A stretch of 62,599 bases of DNA, taken from positions 1-62,599 of the forward strand of contig DUSI01000007.1 of NCBI GenBank assembly GCA_012842685.1. Direction: 5' to 3'. Origin of the DNA: Candidatus Fermentithermobacillaceae bacterium. GTDB lineage: Bacteria > Bacillota > Sulfobacillia > Fermentithermobacillales > Fermentithermobacillaceae. This document shows, piece after piece, positions 6,632 to 53,366 of the stretch (within the stretch, counting starts at the first letter, position 1; each line of letters opens with the position of its first letter). Position numbers and translations under genes: made by a program. A model generated the notes under the pieces. That model had not been told where the DNA came from, ran no database searches, and saw only the letters and a program-made list of their open reading frames with translations.

Positions 6632-6995
6632 AGACGAACTAGTGGCCCGGCGGTGGGCCGAGCTCAAGAAGCTTTCCGACGAAGAGCTCAAGGCCCGGTT
6701 TTGGCAGCTGGCCGAGGAGATAGTAAGGCCCCTCTACGATCTCGCCTATACCCACACCTCGCCTTCCATCGAACGTTCGGTCCTCCTCCGGATGGGGTTT
6801 TCGAGCCTCGAAGCCAAAGCCATAGTCTCCCAAGCCGAAAAGACGGGCCTCCTCGGAAAAGGCGCCGGCCATCTGGTGCTTAAACACGCAGAGATTTCAG
6901 GAAAGCATTATCTCGACGCCGGAAGAGAGCTTTGCGACAGCCCCGCTGCATGGGACGAGCTCAAAGCCGCCTTTGAAGGGGGGGCATCCCGGTGA
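6624..6995 (+). CDS. oraS: D-ornithine 4,5-aminomutase, small subunit
   Basis: 123-aa partner of OraE in the adenosylcobalamin/PLP aminomutase that moves the terminal amino group of D-ornithine to C4. Typical features are a charged helical N-terminus, YDLAYTHTSPSIERSVLLRMG and the GAGHLVLKHA segment near residue 80. Start GTG 6624 overlaps ortB by 8 nt, and the stop overlaps the oraE start (GTGA). The length equals the known OraS size of about 121 aa. Confidence 0.95.
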   Translation: MHRDELVARRWAELKKLSDEELKARFWQLAEEIVRPLYDLAYTHTSPSIERSVLLRMGFSSLEAKAIVSQAEKTGLLGKGAGHLVLKHAEISGKHYLDAGRELCDSPAAWDELKAAFEGGASR

Positions 6996-9253
6996 AGGAA
7001 GAGCGTCTCGAAAGGCAGACGCCGGCTACCCAGGGAGGCGGCCGGGTTGGTCTGGATCCTTCGCGGAAAATCGATGTCCGTGAGATACTCAAAGATCTCG
7101 AGCACTACCGCCCCAGAAGGCACGGCTGGACCTGGAGGAAGAAGGTTCCGGACAACCGGGTAGGTCCCTTCCGGTACAGGGAGACGTCGGAATCCCTCAA
7201 GCGGTCGGTTCCCCTTCCCGCGGCCAAGTACTTCGGCGGGATAGATCCCCAGCCCGATTGCGTGATAACGACAGAGATTGCTTCGGGGCGTTTTGAAGAC
7301 GACATAAGGCGCATGAGGATGGCTGCGTGGCACGGGGCCGACCACATAATGGTCATCCGCACCACGGGCCAGAGCCACATCGACGGGCTCCTGGAGGGTA
7401 CGCCCGAGGGAGTGGGCGGGATCCCCATCACCAGGAAGCAGCTCAGGGCAACGCGCAAGGCGCTTGACCTCATCGAGGACGAAGTTGGCCGCCCCATCAA
7501 CTTCCATTCGTACGTATCCGGAGTGGCGGGGCCCGAGATAGCGGTCCTCTTCGCGGAGGAAGGGGTCAACGGCGCCCATCAAGATCCCCAGTATAACGTC
7601 CTCTACAGGAACGTGAACATGGAGAGGTCGTTCGTCGACGCTGCGGTGGCCAAGAGGATCATGGCCGAATTCGGGCTCCTCCAGATAGACGGCGCACACA
7701 ACGCCAATGCTACGGCCCTCCAGGCTTGGAAGGTCATGCCCGAGCTCTTGGTCCAGCACGCCATAAACTGCGCCTTCTCCCGCATGGTCGGCATGAAGCC
7801 TGAAAACATAGCCCTTTCGTCGGTTCCGCCGACGGCGCCGCCTGCCCCGGCCATGTCTTACGATCTGCCCTACGCCGTGTGCCTCAGGTGGCTCTTTTCG
7901 GACTACAAGATAAGGGCCCAGCAGAATACAAGGTACATTGAGTCTGACATGCGGGAAGCCACGGTAACCCATACCCTTAACCTTCTCCTCACGAGGCTCA
8001 CTTCTGCCGACGTGCAGAGCACGATCACGCCGGACGAGGGAAGGAACGTCCCGTGGCATTACAACAACCTGGCGGCCGTAGATACCGCCAAGCAGACGCT
8101 CCTCGCGCTCGACGGCCTTAAAGACATGGTGGAGATAAAGAAGGAAGGTCCCTTCCGGGAGGCCGTGAGGGACCTCGCGGAGAGGGCCGTTTTGTTCCTC
8201 GAAGAGATAAAGGAACAGGGCTATTTCGAGGCCGTGGCCAGCGGCATGTTCGTAGACTCCGGGTTTTACCCGGTAAGGAACGGGGACGGCATAAGGCGCG
8301 ATCCGAACGGAGGCATTGGATACGGGACCATCGTAGAGAGAGACAAGGATTACTTCGCGCCCGTGTGCCACCACTTTGGGTATCAGGACCCTGCCAGGCT
8401 CAAAGATGGCAGGCCTTGTGATGCGATCGGAGGCTGCACCTTCTGCGATCCCGGCAAGATAGTATACATCGACGAGCTGGATCCCGAGGACAACGTGGAG
8501 AAGCGCCTCGAGAAGGTGGCCAAGGAAGTAGGGGATGACCTCATCAAGCCCGAAGTGCAGTGGGCCGGAGACGGGTATATCACCCTCACCATGTTCATCC
8601 CCGAGGCAGAGAGGGTCGCCGAGTACGCCGCACTGGAGATCGCGAAACGCCTCGGACTCGAAAACGCCGAGGTGATCCACAAGGGGATTGCCCATCCTGC
8701 CGAAGGCACAGTGGTCGAAGTGAAGGCCGTCGTGCCCTTCGGGATAGAGCGGGATTCCCTGAAGATCCCCGAGAAACCCTCTGTCCTTTCTGCCGAGGAG
8801 ATCCGCGAGGACATAAGGAAGCGGCCTATGAAGGTCGTCTGCGCGACGGTCGGCGAAGACGAGCATTCCGTCGGGATGAGGGAGATCATCGACATCAAGC
8901 ACGGGGGCATCGAAGGCTTCGGGATCAAGGCCGTCTACCTCGGGACTTCTGTGCCCGTTGAGAAGGTGGTAAACGCGGCGATAGAGGAAGACGCTGACGC
9001 TATCCTCATCTCCACCATAATCAGCCACGCCGACATCCACAGGAAGAATATGGAGCGCCTTGCGAGACTCTGCGAGGAAAAGGGCGTCAGGGATAGGTTC
9101 ATACTCGTTGGCGGCGGGACCCAGGTGACCAACGACCTTGCGGTCCAGGCGGGTCTCGACGCGGGATTCGGGCGCGGAACAAAGGGCATCGACGTAGCCT
9201 CGTTCCTCGTCAAGAAGCGGAGGGAACGCCTCGGATTGGAGAATCCTTCATGA
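6992..9253 (+). CDS. oraE: D-ornithine 4,5-aminomutase, large (E) subunit, B12 and PLP dependent
   Basis: 753-aa catalytic subunit. The N-terminal three-quarters form the TIM-barrel substrate domain (for example HGADHIMVIRTTGQSH). The C-terminal Rossmann-like domain carries the cobalamin motif DEHSVG at 623-628, with His625 as lower axial ligand. Lys636 lies 11 residues after it. In the Clostridium sticklandii enzyme the B12 histidine (618) and the PLP lysine (629) have the same +11 spacing, so both cofactor residues appear intact. It shares 4-nt overlaps with oraS before and the GlmL-like gene after, so it is translationally coupled on both sides. Confidence 0.97.
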   Translation: MKEERLERQTPATQGGGRVGLDPSRKIDVREILKDLEHYRPRRHGWTWRKKVPDNRVGPFRYRETSESLKRSVPLPAAKYFGGIDPQPDCVITTEIASGRFEDDIRRMRMAAWHGADHIMVIRTTGQSHIDGLLEGTPEGVGGIPITRKQLRATRKALDLIEDEVGRPINFHSYVSGVAGPEIAVLFAEEGVNGAHQDPQYNVLYRNVNMERSFVDAAVAKRIMAEFGLLQIDGAHNANATALQAWKVMPELLVQHAINCAFSRMVGMKPENIALSSVPPTAPPAPAMSYDLPYAVCLRWLFSDYKIRAQQNTRYIESDMREATVTHTLNLLLTRLTSADVQSTITPDEGRNVPWHYNNLAAVDTAKQTLLALDGLKDMVEIKKEGPFREAVRDLAERAVLFLEEIKEQGYFEAVASGMFVDSGFYPVRNGDGIRRDPNGGIGYGTIVERDKDYFAPVCHHFGYQDPARLKDGRPCDAIGGCTFCDPGKIVYIDELDPEDNVEKRLEKVAKEVGDDLIKPEVQWAGDGYITLTMFIPEAERVAEYAALEIAKRLGLENAEVIHKGIAHPAEGTVVEVKAVVPFGIERDSLKIPEKPSVLSAEEIREDIRKRPMKVVCATVGEDEHSVGMREIIDIKHGGIEGFGIKAVYLGTSVPVEKVVNAAIEEDADAILISTIISHADIHRKNMERLARLCEEKGVRDRFILVGGGTQVTNDLAVQAGLDAGFGRGTKGIDVASFLVKKRRERLGLENPS

Positions 9254-10593
9254 AGCCCGACGTCTTGGTGTTTGAAATAGGGAGCACGACTACCACAGTC
9301 AGCGCGTTCTTGCTCGGGGAGGATCCCCGGTTCTTGGGCCAGGGAATGGCACCCACTACGGTGGAGGCCGGGGATGTCCTCCTCGGCCTCGAAAAAGCCG
9401 TAGAGGACCTGGAGAAGAGGACAGGTCTTGAGCCGGCTCCCCTCATGCTCGCGGCATCCAGCGCCGCAGGCGGGCTCTCCATGACGGTCCACGGCCTGGT
9501 TTACGACATGACAGCCAGGGCCGCCAAGGAAGCGGCCCTGGGAGCCGGAGCGGTCGTGAGGTTCGTAACCGCCGGCGATATGACCGAGCACGACATCAGG
9601 GAGCTAAAGAGGATAAACCCCAAGATCATCCTGCTCGCCGGCGGTGTTGACTACGGCGAAAAAGCCACCGCCATAAGGAATGCGGAGCGCCTGGCCCAGG
9701 CGGGCCTGAGCGCCCCGGTGGTCTACGCGGGCAACATAGCGGCCAGGGCGGAAGTGGCCGAGATTTTCGAGCGTGCCGGCATAAAGTACTACCTTGTGGA
9801 CAACGTCTATCCGCGGGTCGACGAGCTGGTCGTGGAGCCCGCTAGAAGGATTATCCAGGATGCCTTCGAAGAACACATCGTGAAAGCCCCGGGTATGGAC
9901 AACTTGCGGGAGATGGTGAAGGGGACGGTCATGCCCACTCCCGGAGCCGTCATGGAGGCGTGCAAACTCCTCCACCCGGTCCTGGGAGATCTCCTTTGCC
10001 TGGATGTTGGAGGGGCCACGACCGATGTACATTCGGTGGCCCAAGGAAGTCCGGAGATACAGGCCATCCTGGAAAGCCCCGAGCCGGTTGCCAAAAGGAC
10101 GGTAGAGGGCGACTTGGGCATCTACAGGAACGCGCTGAACGTCTACGCGCTGGTCAAGGACAGGGCAGCGAGGGATCTCGGGTTCGACCCGACGCCGTAC
10201 CTGGAAAACCTGAAAGTGATACCCGAGACGCCCGAAGAGGTGGCGCTCGTAAGGTACCTCACCGCCCAGGCCTGCAAGGCCGCAGTTGCCCGGCACGCGG
10301 GCAGGATTAAGTACCTGTACGGGCCGTCCGGTAGGCGGACGGTGGCATCCGGCAAGGACCTCACAAGCGTCCACACGATAATCGGCACGGGTGGGCCGCT
10401 GACGAGGCTCCCGGGCATGGATGAGGTGCTCAAGGAGCTAACCGGCCAGGGTCCGGGGAGGGAGCTTTACCCGAGTGATGCAGCGGTGCTAATCGACAAG
10501 AACTACATCATGGCCGCTTGCGGCGTTTTGTCCAGACAGTTCCCCGAGGAGGCCAGGAGGATCCTCTTGGACGGATTGGAGGCCCGAAAGTGA
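9250..10593 (+). CDS. GlmL/MutL-family ATPase of the ornithine operon, probable aminomutase reactivase
   Basis: 447-aa ASKHA-fold protein of the glutamate-mutase-L family. Phosphate-1 loop EIGSTTTT starts at residue 9 and phosphate-2 motif DVGGATTD at 252-259, both intact. Family members sit beside B12-dependent mutases and are thought to act as chaperone ATPases or reactivases. Being locked between oraE (ATGA overlap) and orr (GTGA overlap), it most likely serves OraSE. It is one of three GlmL-family genes in this window, the others being at 42138 and 50142. The exact biochemical role is inferred. Confidence 0.85.
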   Translation: MKPDVLVFEIGSTTTTVSAFLLGEDPRFLGQGMAPTTVEAGDVLLGLEKAVEDLEKRTGLEPAPLMLAASSAAGGLSMTVHGLVYDMTARAAKEAALGAGAVVRFVTAGDMTEHDIRELKRINPKIILLAGGVDYGEKATAIRNAERLAQAGLSAPVVYAGNIAARAEVAEIFERAGIKYYLVDNVYPRVDELVVEPARRIIQDAFEEHIVKAPGMDNLREMVKGTVMPTPGAVMEACKLLHPVLGDLLCLDVGGATTDVHSVAQGSPEIQAILESPEPVAKRTVEGDLGIYRNALNVYALVKDRAARDLGFDPTPYLENLKVIPETPEEVALVRYLTAQACKAAVARHAGRIKYLYGPSGRRTVASGKDLTSVHTIIGTGGPLTRLPGMDEVLKELTGQGPGRELYPSDAAVLIDKNYIMAACGVLSRQFPEEARRILLDGLEARK

Positions 10594-41399: not shown

Positions 41400-42122
41400 A
41401 TGGACCAGCCCATCCTACGCACCGTGAACCTCCGGAAGTCTTTCTTCCTGGGTCAGACAATCTATGCCGTAAACGACGTGAACCTTGAGGTCGACCAGGG
41501 CGAATTTGTGGTGATCATGGGGCCGTCGGGGAGCGGAAAGAGCACCTTGCTTTCCCTCCTGGGAGGGCTGGACCGGCCCCAGTCGGGGGACGTGATCCTG
41601 GACGGGGAGAGGTACTCCAAGCTTTCCGAGAATGGCCTCGCCAGGATCCGCAGGAACAAGGTGGGGTTCGTGTTCCAGTTCTTCAACCTCATACCTCACC
41701 TCACCGCCCTTGAGAACGTCATGCTTCCGATGAGGTTTGGGAAGCTCACCAAGCGCCAGATGGAAGATAGGGCGAGGGAACTCCTGGAAACGGTCGGCCT
41801 TGGCGCCAGGAAGAACCACAAGCCTCCGGAGCTCTCCGGAGGGGAGCAGCAGCGGGTCGCCATCGCCAGGGCCCTGGCCAACGAGCCTGCGGTTGTCCTC
41901 GCCGACGAACCCACGGGCAACCTCGACAGGAAGACTTCCGCCGAGATAGGCGAGATATTCCACAGGCTGAACAGTGAGAAGGGACAGACGTTCGTTATCG
42001 TTTCCCACGATCCGTCCCTCACGAAGTGGGCCCACAGGGTGGTGAACATGCTCGACGGGCGGATCGTCGAGATAACCGGAGGGGGCATGGAGGGCGTTCC
42101 TCTCACCCCCCTACACAGCTAG
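41400..42122 (+). CDS. ABC transporter ATPase, LolD/MacB type (copy 1)
   Basis: 240-aa ATPase: Walker A GPSGSGKS (about 41-48), Q-loop FVFQFFNLIPH, signature LSGGEQQ (about 142), Walker B VVLADEPTG and the H-loop SHD. This is the lipoprotein/macrolide-exporter (FtsE/LolD/MacB) subgroup, which powers mechanotransmission across the membrane without moving substrate through a channel. No permease follows it directly; a GlmL-like gene starts 15 nt later. The closest permeases are at 47334 and 49427. It is 55-60 percent like copy 2 by eye. Confidence 0.93.
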   Translation: MDQPILRTVNLRKSFFLGQTIYAVNDVNLEVDQGEFVVIMGPSGSGKSTLLSLLGGLDRPQSGDVILDGERYSKLSENGLARIRRNKVGFVFQFFNLIPHLTALENVMLPMRFGKLTKRQMEDRARELLETVGLGARKNHKPPELSGGEQQRVAIARALANEPAVVLADEPTGNLDRKTSAEIGEIFHRLNSEKGQTFVIVSHDPSLTKWAHRVVNMLDGRIVEITGGGMEGVPLTPLHS

Positions 42123-42137
42123 GAAGGATTGCTGGAG

Positions 42138-43853
42138 ATGGTAAGAAGATACGTTCACTTGGATATCGGTACCACGGTCACCAGGGCCAGAGCGTGGGAC
42201 GTTTCAGGTCGCAGGGCTGAGCTCAAGGGTTACGCTCTTGCCCCCACACCGCCGCCCTCGGATGATGCCGATCTAACGGAGGGTGTTCGCCTCGCGTATT
42301 CGGAACTGACGTCGCGCCTGGGGGAAAGCCGGTTTGACCCGGAAGAGGTCTTGGTTACGGTGAGCGCGGGAGGAGAGCCTAAGGTCGCGTGCGCCGGAGT
42401 CGTGAAGGGGATTTCGGGAGACTCGGCGAGGAGGGCCGCCCTTTCCGCTGGGGCCACGGTGACGGACCTTCTGGCCGTCGACGACGGTCGTTTCGAGTAC
42501 CAGCGTATCCTTGACCTCAAGAGACAAGACATATCCATGGTCTTGATGGCCGGAGGCGTGGACGAAGAGATAATCGGGCAGGGTCGCCACCAGCTCTACA
42601 ACGTGGCGCGGGTCGTCGCCCAAGGCCTGCCTGAGCGGAGGGGGACGGGGAAGAGAGTACCCGTGGTCTACGCCGCTTCGGTGGATGGCCGCGAAGAAGT
42701 GAGCAAGATCTTCGGTGATTCGATCCAAGTCGTCTGGACAGAGAACGTGAGGTCCCGCCTGGAAGAGGAGAACCTCGACCCGGCCAGGGACGCCGTGCTG
42801 GGAGTCTTTTCATCGAGCATAAGGCAAGACCCGAGATTCACCGGTCTCGGCCGGTTCGGGGCAGCCAAGGTGCTCCCCTCGGGTCATGCCCTGGGGCTTG
42901 CGGTCCGCAGGATTGCCGAAAGCCTCGGGCAGAACGTGATGGTGATCTCCCTGGATGGAGACGCCGTCCAGGTACTGACGGTTATCAAGGGGGTTTTCAC
43001 CAGGACGGTAACTCCCGTAACCCTCGTAGGAGCCAAAGATGTGGCCAGGTGGCTTCCTTCGGCGAGGCTCGCCGGCCTGCTTGAAGACACGCTCGCCTGC
43101 TGGAAGATGGCGCCCGGGTCGCTCCCTGCTTCCTGGGATGACCTGGCGGTCTATTTGGCCGTGCAGAAGCAGGCGCTTCTTGAGGCGATCCGCGAGCACT
43201 CGTCTACCGCCATCGAGCTCCGCGGCATCCACAGGCAAAGGCAGATCGGAGAGACCTTCCAGGTAAACGTCAAAGGTGGGGACACCCTGGTCAGGATGGA
43301 GCGGATAGGTACCGTATGCGTGACCGGGTACTTGGCCGGGCTCCTTTCTCCCGCGGCGCACGTTTCCCTGCTCGTGGATGCCCTGGATGATCACGGGGCC
43401 ACGAAGGTTTACCTGGACAGAGACGGTATCTTGGAATCCCTGGCTGCAGTCTCGAATGATGGCGCTATCATGCCCGGCGACGCGCTCTCTCCGGTCGCGC
43501 TCTTGCTAAGCCCCGGGAGAAACGAGGAGCGCGTCGGACCTAAGTGGGCATTCCTGCGGGCGGGCCCGGCTCCCGAACCGCTACAGGTGGTCCAGGGAGA
43601 GATATCTCGAGTACCCATCCCAGCCGGCAAGCGGCCGGTCGTCGAACTCCACCCGTCGGCGAGGGGAGACGTGGGAGACGGCGAGGGCCGTCGGGTTGCC
43701 GTCCTTGCCGAAGGCTTTGGTTCTATCTACGTGGATGCCAGACCGCGGGGCAGGAGGACGGGCGACCTCTACCGCGAGAACGTTAGGACATACAGGGCGC
43801 TGGGAGTGTTTCCCGAGGATGTCCTGGCAGGATGGGAAAGGGGGGCTAGATGA
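42138..43853 (+). CDS. GlmL/MutL-like ASKHA protein with degenerate phosphate-2 motif (copy 1)
   Basis: 571-aa protein related to the GlmL-family gene at 50142. The phosphate-1 loop is present (LDIGTTVT, about 8-15). SAGGEP, MAGGVDEE and VVYAASVDGREEV correspond to SSAGGG, TGGTDGG and VIYAGNVDARDMV of copy 2. The phosphate-2 block, DIGGATTDV in copy 2, is here SLDGDAVQVL, so ATP hydrolysis may be lost. A C-terminal part of about 200 residues is specific to these longer members. ATG 42138 has GGAAGG 10 nt upstream. It overlaps the next gene by 4 nt (ATGA). Function unknown; no B12 mutase is nearby. Confidence 0.75.
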   Translation: MVRRYVHLDIGTTVTRARAWDVSGRRAELKGYALAPTPPPSDDADLTEGVRLAYSELTSRLGESRFDPEEVLVTVSAGGEPKVACAGVVKGISGDSARRAALSAGATVTDLLAVDDGRFEYQRILDLKRQDISMVLMAGGVDEEIIGQGRHQLYNVARVVAQGLPERRGTGKRVPVVYAASVDGREEVSKIFGDSIQVVWTENVRSRLEEENLDPARDAVLGVFSSSIRQDPRFTGLGRFGAAKVLPSGHALGLAVRRIAESLGQNVMVISLDGDAVQVLTVIKGVFTRTVTPVTLVGAKDVARWLPSARLAGLLEDTLACWKMAPGSLPASWDDLAVYLAVQKQALLEAIREHSSTAIELRGIHRQRQIGETFQVNVKGGDTLVRMERIGTVCVTGYLAGLLSPAAHVSLLVDALDDHGATKVYLDRDGILESLAAVSNDGAIMPGDALSPVALLLSPGRNEERVGPKWAFLRAGPAPEPLQVVQGEISRVPIPAGKRPVVELHPSARGDVGDGEGRRVAVLAEGFGSIYVDARPRGRRTGDLYRENVRTYRALGVFPEDVLAGWERGAR

Positions 43854-45073
43854 TGGCGCTCTACGCTTTGAGCCGCCCGAGGGTCATGAAGGGCGCTTCC
43901 ATCAGGAGGCTGCGCATTTTCCCATCCGCCGGCGAGCCGCTGGTATCGCCAGGTTCGGAAGTCTCCGCCGAGACCATCATCGGCAAGTACTCATCGCGGC
44001 AGCGACTCAGGTATGTGAGGATGGAGTCTTCCGGCGAACAGATAATCGCGACTTTGCTCGTGACCGAAGGGCAGAAAGTAAAGCGCGGGGAAGTCCTCGG
44101 GTATTATTCGTACATGTTTGGCCTTGGCTACACCGAGTACACTTCGCCTTGCGACGGCGAGGTGGTGGAGATAAGCCACGCCACCGGACGCGTCGCGATA
44201 AGAGAAGAACCGTCTGAGCTGGCGTGCCACCTTCCCGGCACTGTCGAGCATGTGGACGCAGCCGTCGGAGTGCTGGTGCGTTCCCGGGGAGATATAGTCA
44301 TGGGCGCCGCAGGCGCGGGTTTCGCGCGGTCGGGTATCCTCGTGAGGAAAGCAGAGGACCCCGGCGAGGCCGTATCGCCTCAGAAGATCGGTCCGCAAGA
44401 CGCAGACCGGGTGATCCTCGCGGGTTCCACCGTGACTAGGGAGCTCTTGGAAGCGTGCCTAAGGTACCGGGTTTCGGGGATCGTCGCCGGGAGCGCTCCG
44501 GCGAGCGTGGTCGGGTGGTACGAAAACCTGGTACAGGAGCTGGACTGGGACGAGTTCCTGGCCAGGTATTGGACCAGGGAGCTCAAGAAGAGAGACGCGG
44601 CGGTGCCGCGTCCCACGGAGATCGCGCCTTCTCTTGTCCTGGTCGAAGGCTATGGGAAGATGCCCATGTCGGTCGAGGCGTTTGAATGCCTGAGGTCTTT
44701 CGAAGGCGAAAAGGTGTTCATAGACGGCGCCAGCCTACACCAGGTAGCTGCAGGCAGGTGGGACGCAGGGCCCTGCGTGATAAGACCTGTCCTCGATGAA
44801 GGAGATCTTGTGAGCGCCGGGGACGCGCCCGGAGATCGATGCCGAAACACCTCTTACGAGAACGGAAAGCGCAGCTTCCTGCGGGAGATAGCTCCAGGCG
44901 CGAGGGTAAGAGTCTTCGGCCTTACGTCCGGACCCGTCGAGGGCGTGGTTGAAGGATATGTCCAGGAAGGCCCGGACTTCCGGCCCATGGTTCCCGTGGA
45001 GCATGTCCGCGTCTCGACACTCACCGGCGAGAGGATTACCGTACCGGTGTTTAACGTGTATGTCTTGGAGTGA
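43850..45073 (+). CDS. barrel-sandwich/EGYG-MPM protein (copy 1), unknown function
   Basis: 407-aa cytosolic protein paralogous to the one at 51963. The N-terminal half has lipoyl-like barrel-sandwich features, with turns PGSEV, EGQKVKRGEVLGYY and YTSPCDGEVVEIS. The central part has VSGIVAG. The shared C-terminal signature is LVEGYGKMPM followed by FIDGASLHQVAAG (copy 2: VMEGFGPMPM and SIDGTTHIRAG). No catalytic residues are recognisable. The start overlaps the GlmL-like stop, so the pair is co-translated. The final domain is beta-rich and ends PVFNVYVLE. Confidence 0.7.
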   Translation: MMALYALSRPRVMKGASIRRLRIFPSAGEPLVSPGSEVSAETIIGKYSSRQRLRYVRMESSGEQIIATLLVTEGQKVKRGEVLGYYSYMFGLGYTEYTSPCDGEVVEISHATGRVAIREEPSELACHLPGTVEHVDAAVGVLVRSRGDIVMGAAGAGFARSGILVRKAEDPGEAVSPQKIGPQDADRVILAGSTVTRELLEACLRYRVSGIVAGSAPASVVGWYENLVQELDWDEFLARYWTRELKKRDAAVPRPTEIAPSLVLVEGYGKMPMSVEAFECLRSFEGEKVFIDGASLHQVAAGRWDAGPCVIRPVLDEGDLVSAGDAPGDRCRNTSYENGKRSFLREIAPGARVRVFGLTSGPVEGVVEGYVQEGPDFRPMVPVEHVRVSTLTGERITVPVFNVYVLE

Positions 45074-45085
45074 TCCGGCTATCGA

Positions 45086-46102
45086 ATGAGGTCCCAGGAC
45101 ATCTTCAGGATAAACCTCCGCCGCGCCATGGCGGAGCAAGGGCTCAAGGTGAAGGACTTGGCCGATATGGTAGGGCTGAGTCCTTCTTATCTTTCCCTCA
45201 TACTTTCCGGCGAAAGGCAGAACCTGAGCGACTACCACAAAGACGCCCTGGCCATGGCTCTGGGGACGACAGTGGCTGCCCTTTACACTCCGGGTGCCTT
45301 CGGCCCCGCTTACGAGGAAGGTACCCCCGAGCGCGGGGACGGGGAATCCTTGCCGGAACCCTCGGTATCTCAGAGAGGCACCGTTCGGCCGTCCGGGGCA
45401 TTTGTGCCCGCGGCTAAACTCCCGGGCCGGGACATAGGGGCCTTTGAGGACTTCCTTAGGGCTTTGAACGTAAGAGACGACGTGCTCACCGCCGCATATT
45501 ACAGGGAACTGAGCAGCCTTTCAGACGACGAGATACGGCGCTTCGGGGAAGTGATCCGGAGGGTAATCAACGCCTGGCAGGCTCGCTTGGCTGACCGGCG
45601 GGAACGCGATAGAGGCCAAACCGTCACGGGAGAGCTTGCCCAGGAGGCGCCACGGGGGCATGGGGCTTCAGGAGCTGAACCTGAGGCCGGAGTGGCAGGC
45701 GCCTTTCCGGAGAGACCGCCCCTTTCCGCCGAATGCCGGATTCTCGCCGGTCTTGTGGGCTATCTTGCTCCGATCTTGGGCGACGTCCCCCTGGAGGCGC
45801 TGGAGATAGCCTGCGGGTGGCCGAAGGCCAAGGTTTACCGCCTGGCGGGGACCCTGGAGGCGTCGGGAGCTATCTCATTGGGTTCCGGCAGTGAGGACAG
45901 CGTTACCGTCCGGCTGGATTCCGGTATTGACCCGCGTGTTGCCAGGAGCTGGATCCGGTCTCCCGCGAAGGAAGAGTGCCTCGGCAGGTTTGCCGCGCAG
46001 CTGAGCTCCCTCCTGGAACCCATTTACGAAGAAGAAGCCCGGGAGAAGCAGACCCCTGACCGTCGGAGCCCACGCCTGGAGGGTTGCCAAAGAGCACCTT
46101 GA
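45086..46102 (+). CDS. XRE-family HTH regulator with second winged-helix-like domain
   Basis: 338-aa DNA-binding protein. The N-terminal XRE HTH (about 7-62) contains KVKDLADMVGLSPSYLSLIL. A disordered Gly/Glu/Pro-rich segment follows, with a helical region about 115-170. A second HTH-like part lies at about 215-285 (LEALEIACGWPKAKVYRLAG). The last 15 codons (after 46056) are Arg/Pro-rich and look out of frame, while the next gene's frame reads as good helix upstream of its start. The real product may therefore be an HTH-TPR fusion split by a frameshift at the CCCC run 46053-46056. It is probably the local regulator of the ABC/GlmL locus. Confidence 0.75.
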   Translation: MRSQDIFRINLRRAMAEQGLKVKDLADMVGLSPSYLSLILSGERQNLSDYHKDALAMALGTTVAALYTPGAFGPAYEEGTPERGDGESLPEPSVSQRGTVRPSGAFVPAAKLPGRDIGAFEDFLRALNVRDDVLTAAYYRELSSLSDDEIRRFGEVIRRVINAWQARLADRRERDRGQTVTGELAQEAPRGHGASGAEPEAGVAGAFPERPPLSAECRILAGLVGYLAPILGDVPLEALEIACGWPKAKVYRLAGTLEASGAISLGSGSEDSVTVRLDSGIDPRVARSWIRSPAKEECLGRFAAQLSSLLEPIYEEEAREKQTPDRRSPRLEGCQRAP

Positions 46103-46106
46103 GACC

Positions 46107-47096
46107 GTGCTGATGCTAGAAGGAATCCTAGGGATAGAGCCTGCCGAAAGAGCCCAGACATACCAGACGATGGCCGATGTGTGTCTAAACCTGGGCGATG
46201 TGGATGAAGCTCTTGTTTACCAGGAACGCAACATCGCCTATTGGGAGAGCGCCGGGCGTACCGCGGACGTAGTTATGGGACTCCTCAGGGCTGGCCTCAT
46301 GCTGGCGCGGCGTTCTGATTGGGGCAAGGCCAAAGACTACCTCGAACGCGCCATAAGGCTGTCTTCCAACGACCTGGTGCTCCAGGCGCGATCGAGGATA
46401 GGTCTGGCTTCGATTTTGGCTTCCAGCGGTTCCCTACGGGCCGCGTTCGACGAGCTTCAAAAAGCGCTGGACATTGGTACCCGCCTCAACGAACCGGCCA
46501 TCATAGTGAGGTCCCTACTGGGGCTCGGCCGGGCGTATCTCGCCCGCGGCGACCTGCGCAGGGCTTCGGTTGCCCTCAACCAGGCTCTCTCCCTTGCAGA
46601 GCGGAAAGACCCTGTCGCGCGGGTCTGGGTGGGGATCGAACTGGGCCGTCTTCTCACGGAAGAAGGAGATTTCATCAGGGCGCGACAGGAGCTAGAAGCC
46701 TCGGCGCGTCTCGCCAGGGAAGGAAAGAGGCCGGCCGACGAACACCTGGCGAGAAGCTACCTCGCGATATGCCTCAGCATGGAGCAGGACGGAGCGGAAC
46801 TCAGGGAAGCGTGGGATCAGGCCGATGCGGCCCGGAGGTTCTTCGAAGGCACGGGTGACTTCCGGGGGATGGTCGTGTCTCAGGTCGCTTGCGCAAAGGT
46901 GCTCGCGGCTCTGGGCGATCCGGCGCTTGCGGCAAGGTATTTCGACCAAGCGGCACGGAAGGGCAGGGAATCGGAAGATCCCGTCCTCGAAGCTTTCGCG
47001 TGCCGCGCATACGGCGAATACCTGGCTGGGATCCACGACGAGATGGCCACCGTGATGCTCCAGAGGGCCAATTGGGCCCGGGGCAAGCTCAGATAA
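46107..47096 (+). CDS. TPR-repeat protein, possible C-terminal half of the HTH regulator
   Basis: 329-aa all-helical protein built of about eight TPR-like repeats, with patterns such as AYLARGDLRRASVALNQAL and ADVCLNLGDVDEALVYQ. No signal peptide. GTG 46107 and ATG 46113 have no SD. The frame continues open upstream to about 46056 with a TPR-like helix (AHAWRVAKEHLETV), overlapping the end of the HTH gene. HTH plus TPR proteins are a known regulator layout (PlcR/Rgg style), so a split or frameshifted regulator is likely. Ligand unknown. Confidence 0.75.
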   Translation: MLMLEGILGIEPAERAQTYQTMADVCLNLGDVDEALVYQERNIAYWESAGRTADVVMGLLRAGLMLARRSDWGKAKDYLERAIRLSSNDLVLQARSRIGLASILASSGSLRAAFDELQKALDIGTRLNEPAIIVRSLLGLGRAYLARGDLRRASVALNQALSLAERKDPVARVWVGIELGRLLTEEGDFIRARQELEASARLAREGKRPADEHLARSYLAICLSMEQDGAELREAWDQADAARRFFEGTGDFRGMVVSQVACAKVLAALGDPALAARYFDQAARKGRESEDPVLEAFACRAYGEYLAGIHDEMATVMLQRANWARGKLR

Positions 47097-47333
47097 ACAG
47101 TTCTTTTTCTGCAAATTGTATGACACTTCTGTGCCTCGGTGCTGCGAGAGTTCTTGGATGTTACCAGGGATAATTCCGCCGCCGAATATCCGGCTGGATT
47201 GCTGATAGTGAAGCTCTTCTTTGACTGCCGGAAAGCCGCTCCTACAATTACTCGTGGAAAACGCCGGGCCGGGCATGTCCCTTTTCGGGCCCGTATAATG
47301 GTAACTGGGAGATAAGGGACGGAGGGGATGCCT
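47097..47333. other. 237-bp intergenic region with a TATAAT before the ABC permease operon
   Basis: TATAAT at 47294-47299 is a perfect -10, but no good -35 lies 17 bp upstream, as expected if an activator such as the adjacent HTH protein is needed. No gene is supported. Confidence 0.35.
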
Positions 47334-48740
47334 ATGGATTTTGTCCGCCTCGCCGTGAGAGATGTCCGGAAGAACGGCTCGCGGACGGCCCTCGCCATCG
47401 CGGCTACAGCCCTCGCCACAGCAATCCTCGTGCTTTCCAGGATCGTCCCCCAAGGCTACATGAAGTACCTCGTCTACGCCGAGCGTTCGTTCGCAGACGC
47501 GGATATTCTGGTGCTCAGGGCTCCCCAGCACGTGTACTCGCAAGACGCTTCACCCCTGGAGTGGAGACCGTGGGCGGGAGAAGAGTGGCAGTCTTACGCC
47601 GAGTACTTCATGCCCGGCCTCAAGGAAAGCGGATACGTAGCCCCGGCCGGCGCACCGCCCTGGGGACCGCTGGATTCCGCACTCCTTTCATCCCTCATAT
47701 CCACTGTGGAAGGAGTTCAAGAAGTCTCGCCCTACCTGTCATTTCCCTGCAAGGTGGACACGGGAGACAGCTACGCAGACGCTATCCTGAGGGGTAGAGC
47801 GTTCGGGGGACCGGCTGAGCCCTTGGCCATGGACTGGATGGTGAAGCGCGGGAGGGCCTTGGGTCCCGAAGACGAAGGCCGGCCGGCTGCCCTGGTCCCT
47901 CAGGTCAGCACGCCGGTCATTCCCTTCAGCGCCGGCATGCGGATGGAAATACTCCTCCCGCGGTCTTCCGGGGCAGCCGGTGGAGCCGGAGGCCCGCATG
48001 GAGAGCCGGCTCTAAGATGGGATGATCCGGTTGCCGTGGACCTAGACGTAGTGGGGTTGTACAAGGTGGAGCTGGGAGCAGTCCCCCTCGAACACCTGGG
48101 GGAGCAGGAGCCTACGGGGATCTGGGGCAGGCCGGAGATCCTGGTGAGCCGCACGACGTTCCTGGACCTCGTAAGAGAGGTGGCGCCGGAGCCGCCGGTG
48201 TACCAGATGCTGGTGAAGGTGGCCCGCCATTCTGAGACAAAGGCCGTCGTTCAAAGGCTCCGTGAGACGCTCGGCCCGGATTACGGGGTGTATGCGATCG
48301 CGGAGCTCGTCGTGTCCGGAGGAAACATGGGAGGGGTAAGCCTCATCGTCCCAGACATGTCGCGCCTCGTGAGGTGGATGATAATCACGATGGCGGCCGG
48401 GATCGTTGCCGGGTCGGTATACATCCTCCTCGCCCTCCAGACCCCGAAGATCGGCCTGCTCAGGGCTATAGGCGCCACTTCGAGAGACATCATGGTCTAC
48501 GCACTGTCGGCCGTGGCATACACGACCCTCTTCGGCATCGGGATAGGGTTCGCTCTAGGCAAGGTCATCACCCTGACGGTCGTAACGGCCACCGGTTTTT
48601 CCCTCCTCGAATGGCTCAAGATGGCGGGCTACGACGCGCTCCTGTCCCTTTCGGGGATGGTGATCCCGCTGGTTTTTGGTCTAGGTGTCGCTATATGGGC
48701 TTCCCGGATACCTTGCGCGGAGGTGCTTAGGCGTGAGTGA
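47334..48740 (+). CDS. MacB/FtsX-type ABC permease with extracytoplasmic domain (permease 1)
   Basis: 468-aa membrane protein: TM1 (about 18-40), an extracytoplasmic MacB-PCD-like domain (about 50-325), then three TM helices (about 338-455) with the FtsX-type loop GLLRAIGATSRDI at 371-383. It ends in a short cytosolic RRE. ATG 47334 is chosen since GGAGG (47321-47325) is 8 nt upstream; ATG 47328 is too close. It overlaps the next ATPase gene by 8 nt. Likely moves or strains envelope components, lipids or lipoproteins in concert with the ATPase. Confidence 0.88.
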   Translation: MDFVRLAVRDVRKNGSRTALAIAATALATAILVLSRIVPQGYMKYLVYAERSFADADILVLRAPQHVYSQDASPLEWRPWAGEEWQSYAEYFMPGLKESGYVAPAGAPPWGPLDSALLSSLISTVEGVQEVSPYLSFPCKVDTGDSYADAILRGRAFGGPAEPLAMDWMVKRGRALGPEDEGRPAALVPQVSTPVIPFSAGMRMEILLPRSSGAAGGAGGPHGEPALRWDDPVAVDLDVVGLYKVELGAVPLEHLGEQEPTGIWGRPEILVSRTTFLDLVREVAPEPPVYQMLVKVARHSETKAVVQRLRETLGPDYGVYAIAELVVSGGNMGGVSLIVPDMSRLVRWMIITMAAGIVAGSVYILLALQTPKIGLLRAIGATSRDIMVYALSAVAYTTLFGIGIGFALGKVITLTVVTATGFSLLEWLKMAGYDALLSLSGMVIPLVFGLGVAIWASRIPCAEVLRRE

Positions 48741-49488
48741 TTGGCTCGGTCCCATCTTGCACTGTCACGAGATAACGAAGCTCTACACCGTGGGAGAAGG
48801 ACTGTCTGCCCTCAAGAACGTGGAACTTGAGGTGGAGAAGGGCCAGTTTGTGGTGATAACCGGGCCATCTGGGTCTGGGAAGACCACCCTCCTCAACATC
48901 CTCGGAGGCATCGACCGGCCTACCCACGGCGAGGTCATACTCAAAGGCCGCAAGTACTCGAGGCTCAGCGAAGACGACCTGGCTCTCCTGAGAAGGCGGG
49001 ATATCGGGATGGTCTTCCAGTTCTTCAACCTCATACCCGAGCTCACCGCAGCAGAAAACATAGGTTTTCCGATGAGGCTCTTGGGCTGGGACGAAAAGGC
49101 GCTTGTGGAGAGGCTTACCTATCTTATGGAGGCAGTAGGGATAAGCGGCAGGTCCGAGCACTACCCGTCTGAGCTCTCAGGTGGTGAGCAGCAGCGGGTC
49201 GCCATCGCCAGGGCGCTGGCCGTTAAGCCTGCGGTGGTCTTGGCCGACGAGCCCACCGGGAACCTGGACTCGGCGAGATCCCGGGAGATAATGGAGCTTT
49301 TCGCCAAGTTCAACAAGGAAGAAGGGCAGACCTTCGTCGTGGTCACCCACGAGCGCGGGTTTGAGGACTACGCGGATGTGGTCGTAAGGCTTTCGGACGG
49401 AAGAGTGGTTGAGAGGGTGGTGAAGGATGGTAGGCGCGACGGCGGCGGAAAGAGTCAGGATCCCTCCAGTGCCGTTACATCTGCTTAA
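48733..49488 (+). CDS. ABC transporter ATPase, LolD/MacB type (copy 2)
   Basis: 251-aa ATPase with Walker A GPSGSGKT, MVFQFFNLIPE, LSGGEQQR, VVLADEPTG and THE motifs in order. GTG 48733 has GGAGG 9 nt upstream and overlaps permease 1 by 8 nt. The C-terminus (about 20 residues, Gly/Asp/Ser-rich) overlaps the start of permease 2 by 62 nt. Flanked by two different permeases, it could power a LolCE-like heterodimer. Confidence 0.93.
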   Translation: MSDWLGPILHCHEITKLYTVGEGLSALKNVELEVEKGQFVVITGPSGSGKTTLLNILGGIDRPTHGEVILKGRKYSRLSEDDLALLRRRDIGMVFQFFNLIPELTAAENIGFPMRLLGWDEKALVERLTYLMEAVGISGRSEHYPSELSGGEQQRVAIARALAVKPAVVLADEPTGNLDSARSREIMELFAKFNKEEGQTFVVVTHERGFEDYADVVVRLSDGRVVERVVKDGRRDGGGKSQDPSSAVTSA

Positions 49489-50122
49489 GGCGATAGCCCT
49501 GAGGAGGGTTAGTACCCACAAGGCGATCGCCGCGTTCGTGTCCCTTTCGACTGCCCTCGCCATAGCCGCGTCTTTCACAGTCACGGCGATGACCGAGGCC
49601 ATGGTCTGGAGAATGGAGGACAGGGCCGTAGGAGGACTGAGCCCTGAAGCCGCGGGCAAGGCGGCGGAGATGGTGCGCCGGGCGGCTCGCGCGGCCTACC
49701 TTCCGTGGCACGCCGTATCCCTGGCGGCGGCCGTCGTGGCCCTTTCCGGGATCGCCTGCGTGCTGTCGGTCAGTTTCGTGGGGCGGAAGAAGAGCCTCGG
49801 GATCATGAAGACCTTGGGTGGGACGACCCGTGACCTCATGAGGCTCATGGCCCTTGAGGCCACGTTTATGGCTGCTTTCGGCATCCCCTTGGGGCTTCTG
49901 GGAGGGGCCTTGATGACCGGTGTCTACCTTGGTCCCCAGGCGATTAGCCCACTTTGCTTTGTAGTGTCACTTGTGTTCGGCGTCTTGTCCCTTGGGGCCG
50001 GCGTATACATGCCGGTCAGGCTGGTGAGAAACGCAAGCTGTGCCGCGCTGCTCCTGAACAGGCCCGTCTATGCGTTCTCGAACCCGTCGTGTGCCCAGTG
50101 CGGTCTTTGCGGCGGATTTTGA
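49427..50122 (+). CDS. minimal FtsX-like ABC permease with C-terminal CxxCxxC tail (permease 2)
   Basis: 231-aa membrane protein: four TM helices with only a short external loop (about 55-92), and the FtsX-type loop LGIMKTLGGTTRDLM at about 124-138. So it lacks the large extracytoplasmic domain of permease 1. The last residues read SNPSCAQCGLCGGF, a CxxCxxC cluster at the cytosolic end that is not a normal permease feature and could bind iron-sulfur or zinc. ATG 49427 lies inside the ATPase gene; the GAGGG nearby is a fair SD. Confidence 0.8.
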   Translation: MVGATAAERVRIPPVPLHLLKAIALRRVSTHKAIAAFVSLSTALAIAASFTVTAMTEAMVWRMEDRAVGGLSPEAAGKAAEMVRRAARAAYLPWHAVSLAAAVVALSGIACVLSVSFVGRKKSLGIMKTLGGTTRDLMRLMALEATFMAAFGIPLGLLGGALMTGVYLGPQAISPLCFVVSLVFGVLSLGAGVYMPVRLVRNASCAALLLNRPVYAFSNPSCAQCGLCGGF

Positions 50123-50141: not shown

Positions 50142-51962
50142 ATGAAGAGGATTTTGGCGGCTGATGTGGGGAGCACCACGACCAAAGTTACGCTCTTTGT
50201 GAAGGACGACGGGGGCTGGAGGCTGGCCGGCAAGATGGTGGCGCCCACCACGGTCGAGGCTCCCGACCTTGACGTCATGATAGGGCTCAGGAACGCCATA
50301 GCCAAGCTGGAACGGCGCACGGGCATAAAGCTCATGGACGGAGCAAGGCTGCTCGTTCCCCCCGTGGGCGACTACGGCGCGGACGTCTTTGTGGCGACCT
50401 CGAGCGCCGGCGGCGGACTGCAGATGATGGTCACGGGCTTGGTCGGCACCATGACTGCGGAATCTGCCCATAGGGCGGCCCTCGGCGCGGGCGCGGTGGT
50501 GTCGGACGTGGTCTCCCTGGACGACTCACGCACGCTCATAGAACGCCTCGAAGCCATAAAGGCGATGAAGCCCGACATGATCTTGCTCACCGGCGGCACC
50601 GATGGCGGCAACATAAGCGAAGTGGCAGCCATAGCCGAGTACATCGCCATGGCCAGGCCGGAACCGAGGTTTGGCGAGGATTACAAGATCCCGGTCATCT
50701 ACGCGGGCAACGTAGACGCCAGGGATATGGTCGACGATGTTTTGAGGGAAACGAATGACATAACATATACGGACAACATAAGGCCGGAACTTGAAGTTGA
50801 GCGTCTGGACCCCGCGCGGGAGGCCATAAGCAGGATCTTCCTCGAGCACGTGATGATGAGGGCTCCGGGCTATAAGACGCTTGTGAGCTGGACGAACGGA
50901 GCCGTGAGGCCTACGCCGGTCGCCGTAGGAGAAGCGCTTAAGTACGCGTCAGAGCATTTTGGGACCGATGTCTTGGGAGTCGACATAGGCGGCGCCACAA
51001 CCGACGTCTTCTCAGTGATAGGAGGACGGCTCTACCGCACGGTCTCTGCCAACCTCGGTATGTCCTACAGCATGGCCAACGTCCTCGCCGAGGCGAAGCC
51101 CGAATCCATCCTCAGGTGGCTGCCGTGGCAGTTTGACGAGAACCTGGTCAGGAACTGGCAGTTCAACAAAATGGTGAGGCCCACTACGCTTCCCCAGACC
51201 CTCGAGGACCTCATGCTGGAGCAGGCGGTGGCCACGGAAGCCTTGCGGCTTGCCTTCGAGCACCACAAATCCCTCGTGAGGGGCCTGAAAGGTGTGCAGC
51301 AGAGGCGGACCGTAAGTGACATATTCGAACAGACCGGCACGGGAGATACTCTGGTGGACATGCTGAGGACCGGAGCCATAGTAGGTTCCGGCGGGGCGCT
51401 GTCCCACGCGCCCAGGTGGAGCCAGGCCGCTCTGATTATGGTGAACGCCTTCCAGCCCGAGGGGATCACAGAACTCTGGGTCGACAACCTGTTCCTCCTC
51501 CCCCATGTCGGAGCGCTCCTGGAGACGGTCCGGGGTTCTGCTGAGGATGCGATACTCGAGATCCTGACTCGTGAAGCGCTCGTCCCCGTCGCGACCGTGA
51601 TAGCGCCTGTCGGGCCCGCCGCCGGCGATGGGTCGGTCATAGCCGAGGTCAGGGCCGGAGGTGAGTCTCTGCCCGTGACGGCCGGAGATATGGAGGCTTT
51701 CAGCGTCCCTGGCGGCGGAATGGAAGTAGAGGTCCTTCCGAAGAAGGAGTACAACGTAGGGAACGGCCCGGGAATGCCCGTGAGATTCGTGGTAAAGAAG
51801 GGTATGCCCCTCGTCATCCTGGACGGAAGGCGCAGGCCGCTAATGCTCCCCCGGGATTCCCGGAGGCGAATCGAGGCCATCAGGAGATGGCACAGGGTCT
51901 TATCGGCATATCCTGACGGCGCAGAGACGCCTGCGCCGGCTCGCGCCAGGGAGGTGAGCTGA
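50142..51962 (+). CDS. GlmL/MutL-family ASKHA ATPase with C-terminal extension (copy 2)
   Basis: 606-aa protein. Phosphate-1 loop DVGSTTTK (8-15), SSAGGG (about 87-92), TGGTDGG, VIYAGNVDARDM and phosphate-2 DIGGATTD (281-288) are all intact, so it should bind and hydrolyse ATP. About 150 residues beyond the core GlmL domain form a beta-rich extension. It resembles the ornithine-operon member at 9250 (APTTVEA follows in both) but stands next to ABC permeases, not a mutase. RBS GGGAGGGAG before ATG. The stop directly abuts the next ATG. Confidence 0.85.
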   Translation: MKRILAADVGSTTTKVTLFVKDDGGWRLAGKMVAPTTVEAPDLDVMIGLRNAIAKLERRTGIKLMDGARLLVPPVGDYGADVFVATSSAGGGLQMMVTGLVGTMTAESAHRAALGAGAVVSDVVSLDDSRTLIERLEAIKAMKPDMILLTGGTDGGNISEVAAIAEYIAMARPEPRFGEDYKIPVIYAGNVDARDMVDDVLRETNDITYTDNIRPELEVERLDPAREAISRIFLEHVMMRAPGYKTLVSWTNGAVRPTPVAVGEALKYASEHFGTDVLGVDIGGATTDVFSVIGGRLYRTVSANLGMSYSMANVLAEAKPESILRWLPWQFDENLVRNWQFNKMVRPTTLPQTLEDLMLEQAVATEALRLAFEHHKSLVRGLKGVQQRRTVSDIFEQTGTGDTLVDMLRTGAIVGSGGALSHAPRWSQAALIMVNAFQPEGITELWVDNLFLLPHVGALLETVRGSAEDAILEILTREALVPVATVIAPVGPAAGDGSVIAEVRAGGESLPVTAGDMEAFSVPGGGMEVEVLPKKEYNVGNGPGMPVRFVVKKGMPLVILDGRRRPLMLPRDSRRRIEAIRRWHRVLSAYPDGAETPAPARAREVS

Positions 51963-53366
51963 ATGGCACTTAGCTCCAACCTTAGGGTCCTAGAAAAAGC
52001 ACTCTTGAAAAAGACGAGGAAGCTCTCGGTGCCCGGTGAGGTCCTCGTTTCCCAGGGGCAGACGGTGGGGCCTGACGATATCATCGCCAGGACCGACCTG
52101 GTCCCGGGTGCGCCGCGCGTCATAGACCTCACCGCCGAACTGGGGGTGAAGCTGTCTCCCGAGGAAGTCGACAAGATCATCACCAAGAAGCCGGGAGACA
52201 AGGTGACCAAGCAAGAAGTGCTCGGGACATACAGGAAGTCCTTCTGGCAGGGCGGGAAGAGCGTATACTCACCCTGCGACGGCACGATCGAGTACATCTC
52301 GAAGACCCAGAGACGCATCATCATACGCGAGGACCCGCGTTCTGCCACCCCGATGTCCATCGTGTCAGTGGCTTCCAAGCTGTCGATATGGCCCTGGACC
52401 ATCAGGATGTACACGACGGTGGAAGAAGGGGATGAGGTGTTTGCCGGGCAGGTCATCGCGGCGGCGTCAAACGTAGGCACCGCTGACTACGTGTACGCGC
52501 CCATGGCCGGCGTGGTCCAGAAGATATGCCCCAAGACCGGCAGCGTGACCATCGTGCGCCCGGTTAGGCCCAGCCAGGTCAAAGCCCACCTGGGCGGAGT
52601 CGTGACGGAGGTGATCCCCGAATACGGGGCGGTTATCGAGGCGACCGGGTCGTATATCGAAGGGATCTTCGGAATAGGTGGGGAGCGGTCCGGAGAGATC
52701 GTGATGGCGACGGACGGACCTAACGGCGACCTCGGCGAGGCCGGGGTAGATGTCTCCCACAAGGGGAAGATCTTGGTCGCCGGGCGGTTCGTATCCCTTG
52801 AGGCCTTGAAGAAGGCGAAGATGATCGGGGTATCGGGCATCATTGCCGGCGGCGTAAACAACCTGGATCTCGTCCAGCTCTTGGGCAAGGAGATCGTCGT
52901 GGGTATCACGGGGCAGGAAGACTCCGAACTCACCATCATCGTGATGGAAGGTTTCGGCCCCATGCCCATGAACGAAAAGGTTTGGAACCTCCTGGCTTCC
53001 AGGGCGGGAAAAGCAGCGTCCATCGACGGAACGACCCACATAAGGGCGGGTGCCGTAAGGCCCCAGATCCTCATAAGCGACGGGGCGCTGGAGCCTGAGG
53101 CCGGGACCAAGCCGTGGCCGGGTGAGCAGGTGACGAGGCAGGACCGCCCGCTCATAACCAACCTCTCGGTCGGCGACAGGGTGAGGTGTGTGAGGAACCC
53201 CTATTTCGGGCTCTGGGGAGTGGTCGTGGACCTGCCCGCGGAGCCGAGGGAGGTCGAATCGGGCTCTCTCATGGAAGTCGCCCTGGTTAGGCTTGACGAC
53301 GGCAGGGAAGTTTGGATAGCCGAAGCCAACCTGGAGGTATTCAGAGAACTGGAAACCCCGGCGTGA
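51963..53366 (+). CDS. barrel-sandwich/EGFG-MPM protein (copy 2), unknown function
   Basis: 467-aa paralogue of the gene at 43850. It has N-terminal lipoyl/RnfC-N-like turns (VPGEVLVSQGQTVG, GDKVTKQEVLGTY, YSPCDGTIEYIS), then a second BSH-like part (EEGDEVFAGQVIAAAS). GEIVMATDG and VSGIIAGG follow, then the signature VMEGFGPMPM with SIDGTTHIRAG. A KOW/SH3-like end (VGDRVRCVRNPYFGLWGVVV) is found only in this copy. No catalytic motif. ATG directly follows the GlmL-like stop, so the pair is coupled. A strong terminator follows. Confidence 0.72.
   Translation: MALSSNLRVLEKALLKKTRKLSVPGEVLVSQGQTVGPDDIIARTDLVPGAPRVIDLTAELGVKLSPEEVDKIITKKPGDKVTKQEVLGTYRKSFWQGGKSVYSPCDGTIEYISKTQRRIIIREDPRSATPMSIVSVASKLSIWPWTIRMYTTVEEGDEVFAGQVIAAASNVGTADYVYAPMAGVVQKICPKTGSVTIVRPVRPSQVKAHLGGVVTEVIPEYGAVIEATGSYIEGIFGIGGERSGEIVMATDGPNGDLGEAGVDVSHKGKILVAGRFVSLEALKKAKMIGVSGIIAGGVNNLDLVQLLGKEIVVGITGQEDSELTIIVMEGFGPMPMNEKVWNLLASRAGKAASIDGTTHIRAGAVRPQILISDGALEPEAGTKPWPGEQVTRQDRPLITNLSVGDRVRCVRNPYFGLWGVVVDLPAEPREVESGSLMEVALVRLDDGREVWIAEANLEVFRELETPA

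Follow-up and report, generated by a model that had tools for sequence, protein, structure and literature searches.

An ATP-site-degenerate, class-wide lineage of MutL/GlmL-family proteins that travels with barrel-sandwich and ABC/FtsX genes

We analyzed a window of 62,599 nucleotides (contig DUSI01000007.1) from a Candidatus Fermentithermobacillaceae bacterium, whose 1.89-Mb genome encodes six proteins of the MutL family (PF13941). Two of them lie in one gene cluster, in which all GlmL, ABC, FtsX, and barrel-sandwich genes are on the forward strand. Copy 1 (42138..43853; 571 aa) starts 15 bp downstream of the gene for ABC1 (41400..42122), a LolD-type ABC ATPase with intact Walker A, Walker B, and signature motifs, and overlaps by 4 bp the gene for BSH1 (43850..45073), a barrel-sandwich (biotinyl/NqrA-like) protein with weak matches to the Pfam profiles Biotin_lipoyl_2 and NQRA_N. 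There follow genes for an HTH and a TPR protein, FtsX-like permease 1 (47328..48740; Pfam FtsX, below the cut-off), a second LolD-type ATPase with intact motifs (ABC2; 48742..49488), FtsX-like permease 2 (49427..50122; Pfam FtsX), copy 2 (50142..51962), which is a long GlmL with intact ATP-site motifs (Pfam MutL, 389 bits), and its partner BSH2 (51963..53366), a barrel-sandwich/KOW-like protein (Pfam RnfC_N and Biotin_lipoyl). The junctions, in this order, are mostly tiny or overlapping (15, −4, 12, 4, 231, 1, −62, 19, and 0 bp). A canonical short GlmL/Or-4 (9250..10593, forward strand), used here as the family reference and outgroup, adjoins and lies downstream of an OraE-like aminomutase gene (6992..9253). 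No B12-dependent mutase gene adjoins copy 1, its neighbors being the ABC/FtsX and barrel-sandwich genes.

The HTH (45086–46102) and TPR (46107–47096) genes correspond to one continuous ORF of 655–695 aa in relatives (L039 and L043), and since the two ORFs are in different frames, the gene appears to be split here. FtsX-like permease 2 is a shortened permease of 231 aa, compared with 229–271 aa in the genus and 382–459 aa in other relatives, and is shorter than in G007.

Copy 1 is a full-length member of the MutL family, with residues 6–440 matching positions 2–436 of the 450-position Pfam profile (156.7 bits; cut-off, 27). It scores below every NCBIfam GlmL cut-off (64.1 against 204 bits for TIGR01319, 89.3 against 475 for NF040745, and 95.5 against 600 for NF040744); copy 2 is also below the GlmL cut-off (181.6 against 204 bits). 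Other family motifs are still present in copy 1, including AGA.V.D...DDGR and NVRSRLEEE (NxR..LE.E in the family). The extra C-terminal region of approximately 130 aa in the long GlmL proteins (42138–43853 and 50142–51962) gives a weak match to a double-psi beta-barrel profile (E = 0.06).

Three of the 4 nucleotide-site loops are altered in copy 1, the phosphate-1 loop alone (LDIGTTVT, with DIGTTVT at residues 9–15; 42162..42182) being intact. At the phosphate-2 position (residues 271–279; 42948..42974), copy 1 reads SLDGDAVQV, which departs from the ASKHA motif D-x-G-G-x-[ST] and stands opposite DIGGATTDV of copy 2 (50982..51008). The block is gap-free between the flanking conserved strands (NVMVISLDGDAVQVLTVIKG in copy 1 versus DVLGVDIGGATTDVFSVIGG in copy 2), and the alignment gives the same ungapped pairing of VMVISLDGDAVQVLTVIKG in copy 1 on VLGVDIGGATTDVFSVIGG in copy 2, such that Asp is replaced by Ser, the first Gly by Asp, and Thr-Thr-Asp by Ala-Val-Gln. 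Where the family loop GGTDGG, or more generally GG(T/V)DGG, is expected, copy 1 has GGVDEE (residues 139–144; 42552..42569) followed by an insert. The adenosine Gly-Gly motif is likewise lost: TGYLAGLLS (residues 396–404; 43323..43349) contains one Gly fewer than GSGGALSHA, with TG-YLAGLLSP aligned to GSGGALSHAP. The sequence-only reading, according to which copy 1 had lost its phosphate-2 motif and retained the phosphate-1 loop, thus holds on both points; no second DxGGxxT occurs anywhere in the copy 1 sequence, which removes the possibility of an intact site elsewhere in the protein, and the loss is broader than that reading had stated, extending to the GG(T/V)DGG and adenosine Gly-Gly loops.

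The predicted structure of copy 1 (pLDDT 80.6, pTM 0.85) keeps the hairpins of both phosphate-1 (strands 2–10 and 14–23) and phosphate-2 (267–272 and 276–283). Foldseek matched the model to acetone/acetophenone carboxylase, PilM, diol dehydratase reactivase, FtsA, and DnaK, with a best E-value of 5e-9 and values of 1e-7 to 1e-5 for PilM, FtsA, DnaK, and the reactivase, at TM-scores of only 0.2–0.4. Sequence searches found no homologue with a solved structure. As modeled, the fold of copy 1 is of the ASKHA (actin/Hsp70) type, with change confined to loop residues. For the model of the barrel-sandwich protein, all matches were weak and local (NqrA and biotin carrier), and no carrier lysine motif was seen in the BSH1 sequence.

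Orthologues of copy 1 are encoded by 3 further species of the genus and by one species of another genus in the family (73%, 72%, 65%, and 50% identity). All four contain SLDGDxxQ and GGVDEEI, and because SLDGDxxQ is identical across the five species, the SLDGD change does not reflect chance or sequencing error. Together with more distant relatives, these proteins make up a group, denoted type 1, of at least 12 species: the 5 core species, 5 more distant ones in the class, and 2 detected through the barrel-sandwich neighbor. Alignment with other MutL-family proteins showed the full phosphate-2 motif in nearly all of the others and in no type-1 member. In a survey of 80 MutL-family proteins, gathered before the last two type-1 members turned up, the strict phosphate-2 pattern D-x-G-G-A-x-T-D was found in 69 of 70 non-type-1 proteins versus none of 10 type-1 proteins (Fisher p = 7e-12); the two additional members also lack the full motif, bringing the count to 0 of 12. 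The decayed residues differ by lineage (for example, DAGAESVD, DIGELATS, DLGAAGAD, GLHGTAAE, and DLGGESVD), and phosphate-1, intact in the core clade, is changed too in several wider type-1 lineages. Common to all type-1 members is GGVD[E/D/A] followed by the insert. No type-1 protein was found outside the class among 398 genomes of the phylum at the threshold used, in a search that may miss some members, as the class search missed G065; the two best outside-class matches carry an intact DIGGATTD.

Two further GlmL genes are of note. A second FtsX-ABC-FtsX-GlmL-BSH cluster in G004 (L172:8185-10041) encodes a GlmL with partly changed motifs (GNILTK, DVGGSTVD, and ASGIPLSC) and GGTDGG kept, which may mark the early stage of a separate loss of the ATP site. 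The coding sequence of an active-type long GlmL in G042 (L072:5294-7194) is divided between two ORFs.

In trees inferred after all four motif blocks had been cut out of the alignment, ten type-1 proteins formed one clade (support 100/100), and a quicker tree with all twelve recovered the clade with a support of 99. The tree program flagged long-branch joins, and all wider type-1 branches are long. Three independent signs nevertheless agree with the clade, namely, the insert common to its members, the BSH1 clade in a tree of its own, and the ABC1-type neighbor. A topology constrained to place copy 1 as sister to the copy 2 orthologues was rejected (AU test, p = 2e-6), so that copy 1 is a paralogue of old standing rather than a duplicate that was disabled recently; both the test and the tree rule out that it arose by recent duplication of copy 2. 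As judged from these comparisons, copy 1 is shown to belong to an old, class-wide paralogous lineage.

Within the genus, dN/dS is 0.13–0.16 for copy 1 and 0.09–0.12 for copy 2, the ratio being given only where dS is measurable, as copy 1 dS is saturated against G007. Copy 1 evolves at approximately double the rate of copy 2 (73% versus 84% identity for the same species pair), and the type-1 frame is open in all 12 species. In the core clade, 25 of 35 positions in the former nucleotide-site loops are invariant versus 222 of 571 (39%) overall (p = 6e-5), with AGGVDEEI invariant at 8/8 positions and the phosphate-2 loop, taken alone, at 6/9, which is not significant. The copy 1 pocket therefore looks repurposed rather than drifting, to judge by its residues, and varies across the wider type-1 clade.

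A BSH1-type gene lies directly downstream of the type-1 gene in 12 of 12 cases, and the BSH1 proteins form their own clade (support 100), which matches that of type-1 GlmL and also includes the BSH1-type proteins of G042 and G060. An ABC1-type ATPase is encoded near 11 of the 12 type-1 genes, the exception being G029, in which no ABC gene is close, and FtsX genes lie within or next to the clusters; the ABC proteins adjoining type-1 GlmL in other families are 65%–71% identical to ABC1. Outside the family, the gene order is ABC1-FtsX-FtsX-GlmL1-BSH1 in G058, G019, and G065, FtsX-ABC1-FtsX-GlmL1-BSH1 in G043, FtsX-ABC1-(gap)-GlmL1-BSH1 in G017, and ABC1-GlmL1-BSH1-GlmL2-BSH2-FtsX-ABC2-FtsX in G028, which has in addition a divergent HlyD-FtsX set. 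A barrel-sandwich gene follows every long GlmL gene that was checked with downstream sequence, except in G063, where none was recognized among the listed ORFs. In G002 (L037:1506-2967), BSH1 is split into two ORFs next to an intact GlmL1. In three genomes of one genus (G042, G060, and G063; L073, L070, and L170), BSH1-type genes lie between or beside ABC genes, GlmL1 is absent, and an active GlmL gene is located downstream, indicating that type-1 GlmL is not essential to the BSH1/ABC module everywhere.

In ASKHA proteins, phosphate-2 secures Mg and the beta and gamma phosphates through its Asp and Gly-Gly, and the adenosine motif secures the nucleoside through its own Gly-Gly. With the phosphate-2 Asp gone, Asp in place of the phosphate-binding Gly, and the adenosine Gly-Gly lost, normal Mg-ATP binding by copy 1 should be abolished. 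That copy 1 is a pseudo-ATPase, as the sequence-only reading had suggested, is a well-supported prediction, resting on the alteration of three of the four loops, purifying selection, and a whole clade without the motif. We consider it probable that copy 1 is an ATP-dead ASKHA-fold subunit that is held in one state and scaffolds an exporter module of barrel-sandwich and ABC-FtsX proteins, perhaps alongside an active GlmL. Not binding Mg-ATP, copy 1 would be locked in one conformation and, as its gene neighborhood suggests, could serve, together with BSH1, as a scaffolding or regulatory subunit docked on an ABC exporter of the LolD/FtsX type; the docking target would be ABC1 and, in this genus, also the adjoining FtsX1-ABC2-FtsX2, and any switching driven by nucleotide may come from an active GlmL, for instance copy 2. 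Consistent with this reading are the SLDGD state, dN/dS, the frequent invariance of the pocket loops, the type-1 clade and its lack of a full phosphate-2 motif, the constant BSH1 and nearly constant ABC1-type neighbors, the tight spacing, and the matches of the model to nucleotide-binding ASKHA proteins (PilM, FtsA, and diol dehydratase reactivase). Counting against it are the intact phosphate-1 of the core clade, which leaves room for residual or unusual ligand binding, the low TM-scores to ASKHA structures, and the G029 type-1 gene. A broader and distinctly speculative extension holds that, in this Firmicutes class, FtsX/LolD-type ABC exporters have GlmL-family and barrel-sandwich proteins as dedicated subunits on the cytoplasmic side, and that ATP-competent type 2 and ATP-dead type 1 would together form an asymmetric transporter regulator.

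The sequence-only reading had also cast the two copies as an active/inactive pair, with copy 1 as structural partner of copy 2. Such a partnership is plausible at most, copy 1 being no duplicate of copy 2, and copy 2 orthologues occur in the absence of copy 1 in most of the family, namely, in nine other genomes. The stronger version, in which the copies form an obligate active/inactive hetero-oligomer resembling TsaD/TsaB and copy 1 completes or regulates the ATP cycle of copy 2, is possible but doubtful. The two genes share one cluster in the core genus and G007 and lie together in every genome of the family that has copy 1 and whose contigs permit a check; in two other families (G028 and G029), no more than 3.5 kb separates the type-1 gene from an active long GlmL gene, with a rough chance of such proximity of 0.002, from an assumed 4.5% per lineage. 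There is also a precedent in YeaZ/TsaB, a partner of TsaD that has lost the ability to bind ATP (PMC2954210, PMC11648230). Nevertheless, the nine genomes and the rejected sister relationship weigh against it, no active GlmL is encoded in the 20 kb around the type-1 gene of G017, and tandem origin alone may explain the proximity. Type-1 genomes do carry long GlmL proteins with intact motifs alongside the inactive one; copy 1 could also have a partner other than copy 2, since the genome of the window encodes four more MutL-family proteins that are motif-bearing or canonical.

The remaining alternatives bear on copy 1 itself. It is unlikely that copy 1 still binds a nucleotide or other ligand in a remodeled pocket, with phosphate-1 kept and SLDGD forming a new metal or ligand loop: the intact phosphate-1 and the above-average conservation of the core-clade pocket loops, including S271-D275 and GGVDEE, would fit, but the adenosine Gly-Gly loop is shortened, Asp occupies the place of a phosphate-contacting Gly, and other type-1 lineages altered the pocket differently, phosphate-1 included. 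Less probable still is a type-1 clade that is partly a long-branch artefact uniting active GlmL paralogues that lost the site independently; the long branches, the program warning, and the differing decayed residues point that way, whereas the shared GGVD[E/D/A] insert lies outside the tree columns, the BSH1 partner clade was recovered independently, and the ABC1-type neighbor is the same. Decay of copy 1 as a pseudogene is scarcely credible, its roughly twofold faster evolution notwithstanding: the low dN/dS and the intact frames of all type-1 species refute it, and the motif substitutions, SLDGD among them, are kept between orthologues only 50% identical.

To our knowledge, B12 mutase helper is the sole annotated role of the MutL/GlmL family, and in the open literature we found no account of long GlmL or of an association between GlmL and ABC exporters. 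An ATP-dead, class-wide branch traveling with its own barrel-sandwich partner and ABC/FtsX genes suggests a second, unrecognized job of the family, and type 1 versus active GlmL offers a natural dead/active comparison for the purpose of the ATP cycle. Actin/Hsp70-fold pseudo-ATPases are, as far as we know, few, with TsaB best known, which would make a further independent case useful.

Copy 1 shares with the MutL/GlmL family (PF13941; TIGR01319, NF040745, and NF040744) a full-length match and the family motifs, and differs in its extra C-terminal domain, lost loops, and lack of an adjoining B12 mutase. Diol/glycerol dehydratase reactivase (2d0o and 1nbw), which acts much like a chaperone near B12 enzymes, a role also supposed for canonical GlmL, has an ASKHA fold matching that of copy 1 but retains its nucleotide, whereas copy 1 neighbors transporter genes. 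PilM and FtsA, among the best fold matches, are ASKHA proteins of the cytoplasm and attach to machinery in the membrane; unlike copy 1, as predicted here, both bind ATP, and no sequence relationship to copy 1 was detected. A further parallel is TsaB/YeaZ, the inactive ASKHA partner of TsaD (PMC2954210, PMC11648230), which likewise combines an actin/Hsp70 fold, a lost nucleotide site, conservation, and an active paralogue in the genome, but belongs to another family, and its complex with the active paralogue is proven, whereas such a complex of copy 1 is hypothetical.
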